Part shown: positions 318 through 25,331 of the stretch, piece by piece
Numbering within the stretch: position 1 is the stretch's first letter
Layout of the letters: each line of letters begins with the position of its first letter
From: an uncultured Bacteroidales bacterium
GTDB taxonomy: Bacteria > Bacteroidota > Bacteroidia > Bacteroidales > P3
Reading direction: 5' to 3'
Length of the DNA stretch: 36,958 nt
NCBI GenBank assembly: GCA_900317285.1
Contig: ONGA01000020.1
Coordinates: 1 to 36,958, forward strand
The notes under the pieces: model-generated
Seen by the model: the letters and a program-made list of their open reading frames with translations, nothing else
Told to the model about the DNA's origin: nothing
The model's database searches: none
Position numbers and translations under genes: made by a program

Positions 318-469
318 CCAACCCCTCCTGTTTCCCGCCCCAATGACATAGGTCAAACCAGGTAGCGACATAGGAGCGATATAGGAGAGACCATAGACCT
401 ACCATAGAGTTACAATAGAGGTACCATAGACCTAGTATAGACCTACCGAACATAGTTTACATAGTTTTT
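318..469 (+). repeat. Phased ATAG repeat element, copy 1
   Basis: A pyrimidine-rich tract (about 313-342, with CCTGTTTCCC at 327-336) leads into TGACATAGG. ATAG-type units then begin at 348, ~360, 370, 381, 393, 404, 415, 426 and 437, with irregular extra ATAGs at 452 and 461. From 370 on, the spacing is 11, 12, 11, 11, 11, 11 bp. Early units read ATAGGAG and later ones ATAGACCTACC or ATAGAGGTACC. The period matches one DNA helical turn and is not a multiple of three, so TAG triplets fall in every forward frame. No protein-coding signal is seen. Confidence 0.8.
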
Positions 470-470
470 T

Positions 471-820
471 GTGAATTAAAGGAATGTATTGTTTTGAAAA
501 TCAGTACTACTCACAATTATCTTCCTGATAATCAGCTCCCATTTTGATTTTCAAAGTGGATTCCCATCCTGTTTTGCACTTGCAAAGGTACGAACATTTT
601 TCTTTCCGCCAAACAAAATTATGGTTTTATAACAGAAAAAACGCTGAAAATACATAAATCGTTGTTTTACAATAATTTGAAAGAATACCGATAAAAAACC
701 GCCTTCCGAGGGGTCCAAAAAACCCTCCAAAACACCGCTTGGCAGAAGAAAAACGGGGTGGGGGAGCCCTCTTGGCAAAAAAATATCAACCTTAACATGG
801 TTTGATTTTCAGTGAATTAA
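471..820. other. Gene-free AT-rich segment with inverted and direct repeats
   Basis: No convincing gene is found here. An 11-bp perfect inverted repeat (TTTGAAAATCA at 493-503, TGATTTTCAAA at 545-555) encloses a 41-nt loop. TTTGATTTTCA recurs at 801-811. The 9-mer GTGAATTAA occurs at 471-479 and again at 812-820, so the segment is bounded by direct repeats. It could be the remnant of a small non-autonomous insertion or a decayed gene. The 75-codon leftward frame at 551-778 has no recognisable protein character. Confidence 0.5.
583..613 (-). promoter_or_regulatory. Orphan leftward promoter
   Basis: On the minus strand a -33 TTTG (613-610) is separated by 19 bp from a -7 TACCTTTG (590-583). 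This matches the Bacteroidota consensus TTTG-N19/20-TAnnTTTG exactly. Transcription would start near 576 and run left through the inverted repeat and the phased ATAG array toward the OmpA 3' end, where there is no plausible ORF. It could drive an antisense or small RNA, or be a relic. Confidence 0.55.
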
Positions 821-14464: not shown

Positions 14465-14491
14465 AAGGGATTCGCACTCTTGCGGGTCCCT
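14465..14491 (+). terminator. Terminator after rpoC
   Basis: A two-part stem, AAAGGGA / TCCCTTT enclosing CGCA / TGCG with a CTCT loop, is followed directly by TTCCTTTTCC. It lies 27 bp after the rpoC stop and fits the end of the long ribosomal protein-polymerase operon. Confidence 0.75.
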
Positions 14492-14621
14492 TTTCCTTTT
14501 CCCTCCGTCAGTCCTCCCTCACCACCCCCTGACATAGGAGCAACTAAGAAGCATCATATACGCATCATAGGAGAACCCAAGGAGAAGTATAGGAGAATGG
14601 TAGTACAACCATAGGAGCCAC
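14491..14621 (+). repeat. Phased ATAGGAG repeat element, copy 2
   Basis: A pyrimidine tract (about 14485-14530) runs into CCCCCTGACATAGG. Eight 11-bp units then begin at 14534, 14545, 14556, 14567, 14578, 14589, 14600 and 14611, with no spacing drift. Four units read ATAGGAG exactly; the others are variants (taagaag, atatacg, caaggag, gtagtac). The rest of the gap to 14732 is AT-rich with no gene or clear consensus promoter. Confidence 0.85.
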
Positions 14622-14732
14622 TTTTTCCGGATTTCGTCCCACTTTCTCCGTTTCATCCCTAAAAAGTAAAAAACACCCTGTCGGACAATAAAATAACTCC
14701 CTCTGCCGTTATCATCACAAAAAACTCCCATT

Positions 14733-25126: not shown

Positions 25127-25161
25127 GCGGGGCATCCATCCACGGATGCCCCGCTTTTTTT
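25127..25161 (+). terminator. Strong terminator after the OmpA-type gene
   Basis: A perfect 11-bp GC-rich stem (GCGGGGCATCC / GGATGCCCCGC), loop ATCCAC, and a run of seven T at 25155-25161. It is a textbook intrinsic terminator 22 bp after the stop. Confidence 0.92.
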
Positions 25162-25331
25162 ATTCCCTCCTCTTCCCGTTTTTATTCCCTCCTCCTCCCG
25201 TTCCCTTTTGCTCCCCTTCCTGTTTCCCTCCCGTTTTTAATTCCTCCCCCTCTCCTGCCTCTCCCCCTGGCATGAGATAGTACACACATAGTAGCGATAT
25301 AGGAGATGAGTAAGAGTTCAGTAAGAGTTGA
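25155..25331 (+). repeat. Phased ATAG repeat element, copy 3, with 22-bp pyrimidine repeats
   Basis: A pyrimidine tract starts at the terminator T-run. It contains a near-perfect 22-bp tandem repeat (TTTTATTCCCTCCTC-type units, about 25158-25178 and 25180-25200) and a looser third 22-bp stretch at 25201-25222. CCCCCTGGCATGAG near 25263 then leads to units at 25277, 25288, 25299, 25310 and 25321, all exactly 11 bp apart (ATAGTAC, ATAGTAG, ATAGGAG, GTAAGAG, GTAAGAG). AGCGATATAGGAGA at 25293-25306 is shared with copy 1 at 375-388. Confidence 0.8.

Follow-up and report, generated by a model that had tools for sequence, protein, structure and literature searches.

Array downstream of rpoC

The window, the whole stretch of 36,958 nucleotides analyzed, is contig ONGA01000020.1 of an uncultured Bacteroidales bacterium (assembly GCA_900317285.1). 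Between rpoC and a gene for a DUF3467 protein it holds a phased array of 11-bp units. Two further arrays lie elsewhere in the window. The three belong to different repeat families, termed A, B and C. The features are as follows.

344–466, forward strand: phased array of family A, of which 33 loci were collected in the genome
467–580, forward strand: AT-rich module of family A with the inverted repeat GAAAATCA / TGATTTTC, folding no better than shuffles
581–594, reverse strand: TACCTTTGC, promoter-like, at family A's far end; it would give an antisense transcript of the array
14491–14529, forward strand: pyrimidine tract preceding the array on the left, judged to lie outside the repeated element
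14530–14617, forward strand: phased array of family B, eight 11-bp units with starts from 14534 to 14611
14618–14649, forward strand: conserved tail of family B, including an inverted AGGAGAA unit; many genome matches extend to the end of the 121-base query
14685–14712, forward strand: promoter-like ACAATA-N17-GTTAT 5′ of the DUF3467 gene, about 48 bp upstream of it
25270–25331, forward strand: phased array of family C, akin to the leader of MAKLHQG, a DUF6266 gene present in multiple copies

The eight units at exact 11-bp steps (14534–14611), noted in the sequence-only reading, are present as described. Four units read ATAGGAG and one CAAGGAG; three are degenerate (TAAGAAG, ATATACG and GTAGTAC). 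Tandem Repeats Finder, run down to a score of 30, missed the 14534–14611 array and listed 11-bp rows at 364–396, 390–447 and 25309–25329 of the window. The pattern (ATAG N7)x2 ATAG with up to two mismatches matched seven times in the window, against 0.78 matches expected, and none of 100 shuffles reached seven.

Two further copies of the same design had been placed at 318–469 and 25155–25331. The arrays there occupy 344–466 and 25270–25331, consist of other units, and represent families A and C. The family A copy spans 344–594, from the phased array through the AT-rich module to a leftward TAnnTTTG end, which is present in 31 of 33 family A loci. The TAnnTTTG end, TACCTTTGC in the window, is presumably promoter-like and directed leftward, judged by the promoter consensus. 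CATAGG units are common to families A, B and C, and two family A copies (L014 and L073) carry the family B unit CATATACGCAT in phase.

Dispersed copies in the source genome

The genome of this rumen-type bacterium (G000) contains roughly 90 dispersed copies, the rpoC array among them. Among named sequences, the DUF3467 protein has its nearest relatives in uncultured gut Bacteroidales, many of them from ruminants. Family B yielded 41 matches in the 2.07-Mb genome, two of them adjoining pieces. The best full-length match to the window copy reached 98%, and some partial copies were 100% identical (over 96, 92 and 79 bases). Family C yielded 18 matches, five at contig ends.

A gene end is the left neighbor at 27 of 51 loci by crude gene calls (11/15 in family A, 10/23 in B, 6/13 in C); this count took in 15 of 33 A loci and 25 of 41 B loci, with two B loci lacking a left call. 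In family A, the first bases of copies L010 and L028 are the left gene's TGA stop codon, and L025 and L019 start within about 20 bases of a stop codon, all without a pyrimidine tract. Since the tract is missing at such copies, it is judged, together with the hairpin, to lie outside the repeated element. The family B query started at the junction, and its left limit was taken only from the listed flanks of copies. The supposed common order of gene end, hairpin, pyrimidine tract, junction and array thus fails beyond the window, and a compound post-terminator element is rejected on the neighbor counts and the copies starting at stop codons.

Conservation of phase within copies is mixed. Family A has no indel across 30 full arrays. 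Its arrays differ at 139 of 2641 positions (32 copies), and all nine gaps fall in L001 and L002, where left units are missing. The adjoining module shows 684 mismatches in 4113 positions and is non-homologous in some copies. Family B has accumulated six indels and 105 substitutions in 23 of its 41 copies. L066, cut by a contig end, was dropped from the comparison of the two families. Visual inspection of the family A alignment revealed no terminal inverted repeats. Many family A copies, L007, L019 and L022 among them, are flanked on the right by TTTAACTAC repeats in steps of about 10 bp, placed between two divergent promoter-like sites; a strict pattern of the TTTAACTAC type had a single match in 432 kb.

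The 11-bp period in genome and relatives

Absence of the array elsewhere in the genome had been named as grounds for abandoning it. The genome search proposed with it, using (ATAG N7)x3 ATAG, returned 68 matches against none for the reversed pattern, and other copies are present. Self-similarity was scored over 21 stretches that together cover 432 kb of the genome, with 29 kb counted as intergenic on a crude ORF call. At a threshold of 30/55, lag 11 marked 23 regions, while other lags from 5 to 45 marked zero to nine (five at lag 10, three at lag 12), except for the multiples 22 (16 regions) and 33 (13 regions). Among intergenic periods in the sampled 432 kb, 11 bp stands out.

Unbiased stretches of the genus (106 kb) gave six regions at lag 11, five at lag 9 and three at lag 15; the peak is therefore weak there. 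Other families of the order, sampled over 319 kb, showed no lag-11 peak (two regions). Of 99 genomes, 30 contain the pattern (ATAG N7)x3 ATAG, the source genome being one of them, and the units are mostly different. Genus genomes hold 11-bp arrays of unrelated sequence, some of them palindromic. Family B had no match in 58 other genus genomes, and family A had weak matches only, in five of the 58. Family B is a dispersed repeat specific to its lineage.

The expectation that relatives would conserve the 11-bp phase holds for the period, but not for the unit sequence or the position next to rpoC. That the 11-bp phase is meaningful, as suggested earlier, is supported by the unrelated units in relatives that keep the period; within copies, as noted above, its conservation is mixed. 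Two other kinds of locus were observed. In genome G063 (L196 and L032), long inverted ends enclose 11-bp units in a palindromic, MITE-like element, and a DUF6266 gene (L233) is preceded by a 10-bp instead of an 11-bp array (lag-10 score 37/55).

The rpoC-DUF3467 gap was compared by inspection, with rpoC out of reach in many loci. An array was not seen in the gap of relatives such as L082, L094, L095, L100 and L101, and a conserved cis element of this gap was rejected on the frequent lack of an array in relatives. Two loci (L085 and L091) carry an unrelated 11-bp array in the gap. A DUF6266 gene or its remnant precedes the DUF3467 gene in L080, L081, L083, L085, L090 and L102, and several contigs break there.

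Arrays upstream of DUF6266 and DUF6266-like genes

Arrays (lag 11 at least 31/55) were found within 400 bp upstream of 21 of 72 DUF6266 (PF19781) genes and downstream of none (0/72). The next non-harmonic lag upstream was 10, in five genes. The 72 distinct genes came from the genus and other families after removal of duplicates; another duplicate rule gave 20/71. A second set was obtained with a profile (A4) built from 16 divergent DUF6266-like proteins. From its listed matches 59 genes were taken without viewing arrays, the 16 founders being excluded, and six duplicate proteins were dropped. Of these 53 distinct genes, which may include DUF6266 proper but repeat no locus of the first set, 31 had an array upstream and none downstream; lag 10 was found in seven and the harmonic lag 22 in 19. 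Control genes from source-genome and genus samples had arrays upstream in 30/489 and downstream in 38/489 cases, a control inflated by nine genus stretches that had been picked on array matches. The upstream excess over other genes is significant (Fisher, 7e-8 and 1e-19), with the test genes not phylogenetically independent (similar arrays in L416–L418, L447/L451 and L448/L449).

The profile matches 57 of 59 genus genomes. Among genomes lacking a Pfam DUF6266 match, 11 of 21 genes had an array upstream and none downstream (0/21); these were 21 of 24 matches, three encoding identical proteins, and L374 was known beforehand to adjoin an array. Among the tested genes, 73 of 125 (51/72 and 22/53) showed no array at threshold, including most canonical high-scoring DUF6266 genes (L212–L216, L218 and L220–L227). 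By score, the upstream region was palindromic for 20 of the 31 array-bearing genes versus 7 of the 22 others. Dispersed arrays mostly lie far from any DUF6266-like gene, which was found at 8 of 127 loci searched, some of them overlapping. Such a gene is present in five of ten family D-type loci examined (L018, L048, L051, L054 and L057), and one family D array (L068) adjoins the gene of L205.

The source genome has 12 DUF6266 matches, all above the Pfam cut-off, six being closely similar copies at contig ends. At five other contig ends, a family C-like array is preceded by ACAATA-N16-GTTAT; four of these reach the start codon of the MAKLHQG DUF6266 gene, and the fifth ends just short of it. 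None of eight broader DUF6266-like proteins scanned matched PF19781. These eight also matched no ParR model, and two other neighbor proteins matched PF19781. Searches of PHROGs, PDB and NCBIfam returned no significant relative. An AlphaFold model of the L085 protein, based on a six-row alignment, was poor (pLDDT 45). Phages and plasmids had no DUF6266 match with one query protein, nor did four viral-contig scans, which were sensitive to close relatives only. No mention of DUF6266 was found in the part of the literature covered.

Shared dialects of solitary and gene-linked arrays

The unit-sequence type of an array is termed its dialect. In G041, a solitary array (L040) and a gene-linked array (L466) are identical at 44 of 44 bases. 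G025 gave 99 pattern matches, about two per palindrome. The one DUF6266-like gene found there is divergent, was missed by the Pfam model, and lies 3′ of an array in G025's own dialect. In the source genome the sharing is weaker: family C and the MAKLHQG leaders are 74–76% identical over 58 bases. The link between solitary and gene-linked arrays rests there on shared units, because the MAKLHQG leader scores only 25/55 at lag 11, below threshold. G070 and G085, of different families, have the unit CGTATCAAGTC in common, and the neighboring proteins are 69% identical. Array similarity tracks protein similarity (Mantel r 0.38, p 0.0005, 26 genes), clearly only at high identity. A similarity fading with protein identity is expected from co-divergence of binder and array, but also from common descent. 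The 78 arrays comprise 28 dialects; all were chosen by lag 11, and the count is therefore uninformative on other periods.

Position relative to promoter-like elements

A loose form of ACAATA-N16/17-GTTAT precedes 14 of the 16 DUF3467 genes that were inspected. A stricter ACAATA-GTTAT occurred in 14 of 76 DUF6266 entries versus 14 of 535 control genes; four of the 14 entries are copies of one gene, and 10/72 remain without these. The array abuts or overlaps the promoter-like ACAATA in L248, L249 and L269 and lies upstream of it in L205, L211 and L278. ACAATA-GTTA is not general to array gaps, occurring in 2/22 and 2/18 gaps with an array versus 4/69 and 2/57 without.

Proposed function

The rpoC array belongs to a real lineage-specific repeat of a design that is found again throughout the genus and is linked to an uncharacterized protein group; binding of protein to array is put forward as a hypothesis. 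From multiplicity, 11-bp period, upstream linkage and dialect sharing, the window arrays are tentatively interpreted (probability roughly 0.4) as gene-less dispersed copies of DNA operator arrays for a cooperative one-face binder, likeliest the product of a neighboring gene. Each array would consist of head-to-tail sites, elsewhere often palindromic, one per 11-bp helical turn, along which the protein would bind cooperatively on one face of the DNA. Stacking of protein once per turn is favored, because the period is constant and the sequence free. DNA operators are favored because of the upstream polarity and of several arrays next to or upstream of a promoter-like element. From an upstream region or leader, the DUF6266-like product may act on its own promoter. 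The neighboring gene's product is the likeliest binder, as unit sequences differ between all but close relatives. Arrays beside DUF6266 genes with differing sequences suggest protein-specific docking sites that also spread without the gene. In the lineage of the source genome, families A, B and C may represent the spread of the CATAGGAG-type dialect, which is akin to the multicopy DUF6266 gene's leader; the gene-less copies would have spread in a MITE-like manner. Two roles considered earlier, a one-face protein-binding array and a small mobile repeat, are both retained as candidates.

The extension of this proposal is more doubtful. DUF6266 and DUF6266-like proteins might form a Bacteroidales superfamily of self-specific array binders, each recognizing its own dialect only, with arrays spreading as the protein's dependants in species-own dialects. 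An uncharacterized protein group gains a cis partner that can be tested, and the question of which array each protein might read can be put directly. If binding is true, nature would offer a series of dozens of protein-DNA pairs that have diverged together while keeping a fixed helical pitch, as well as a source of lineage-specific intergenic repeats.

Several known systems resemble the operator arrays proposed here. The parC site of plasmid R1 has tandem 11-bp direct repeats beside the gene of its binding protein. The parC centromere-operators of ParMRC plasmid partition fall into specificity groups (PMC9426499). Here, tandem arrays lie upstream of DUF6266-like genes, the products of which are putative binders; the neighbor proteins scanned lack a ribbon-helix-helix match, the arrays are chromosomal, and tens of copies are gene-less. 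The bind locus of rolling-circle plasmids is a plasmid replication origin, whereas DUF6266 was not found on plasmids (one query). PHO-box type sites of OmpR/PhoB regulators are positioned near −35. Those of Streptomyces coelicolor PhoP are 11-bp direct repeats (PMC9019756). Unlike OmpR/PhoB operators, the arrays have no common recognition sequence, and units differ from gene to gene. The systems parC, bind locus and PHO boxes, like the gyrase sites treated below, each match parts of the design only.

Alternative explanations

Passive MITE-like repeats carrying a minisatellite are an improbable but serious alternative, with the 11-bp period as a by-product and the DUF6266 link as hitch-hiking. 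The nearest named repeat is the BrickBuilt MITE of Porphyromonas gingivalis, and nothing closer was found in the literature covered in part. It is intergenic, multicopy and present in Bacteroidales, with a tandem repeat inside a larger dispersed element, and has reported promoter activity in Escherichia coli (PMC4596501). It has a 23-nt unit of a single sequence and terminal inverted repeats near those of the IS5 family; the arrays here have an 11-bp unit, many dialects and DUF6266-like neighbor genes. Besides this precedent, the many near-identical intergenic copies in one species only and the indels of family B fit passive spread. It does not account for a period that is constant in many lineages although the units are unrelated, for the strict upstream polarity shown by one protein group (31/53 versus 0/53), or for a family A array better conserved than its adjoining module.

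Action at the RNA level is considerably less probable. Leader arrays, or an antisense transcript from the leftward promoter of family A, would be bound by an RNA-binding protein. The promoter-like TAnnTTTG with which family A ends is consistent with the latter, and the arrays of MAKLHQG, L208 and L258 lie apparently within leaders. Several arrays, however, are upstream of the presumed promoter. The structured RNA element considered earlier found no support in folding, which was no better than shuffles for two window stretches (z −0.44 and −1.04). Five tRNAs are the sole Rfam matches in the window, and, judged by eye, there is little covariation in the inverted repeat of family A.

A wrapping platform for gyrase or a nucleoid protein, the 11 bp arising from supercoiled DNA, is very unlikely. 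The precedent is the 130-bp symmetrical gyrase motif of E. coli with a GC periodicity of 10.75 bp, together with the enrichment of BIME-2 in gyrase cleavage sites (both from PMC6379681). BIME/REP sequences are dispersed intergenic repeats, as are the arrays here, and the symmetrical arrays of G025 lie between divergently oriented ORFs in nine of 12 loci (crude gene calls). The periodicity here, however, resides in the unit sequence and not in GC alternation. The GC first harmonic at 11 bp had a mean z of −0.04 (s.e. 0.18, n = 28 dialects), and half-turn alternation is absent. A bend, as proposed earlier, or a wrap is thus not favored, and dialects and gene linkage would be left unexplained.

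The post-terminator insulator or pausing element of the sequence-only reading, in keeping with the position of all three window copies 3′ of gene ends, is scarcely credible given a gene end as left neighbor in just 27/51 called loci and the lack of a visible array in the rpoC-DUF3467 gap of relatives such as L082.

Further repeats at DUF6266-related loci

In L048, L068, L055 and L057 the family D array is followed by a perfect short hairpin (ATTCTTCT..AGAAGAAT). The 3′ tails differ among the closely similar DUF6266 copies L202, L203, L204, L206, L209 and L210. Some of these tails contain a short CTAG-containing repeat encoding Ser and Pro. In L112, the rpoC-DUF3467 gap is filled with CTAG repeats of a similar kind, 9 bp long.
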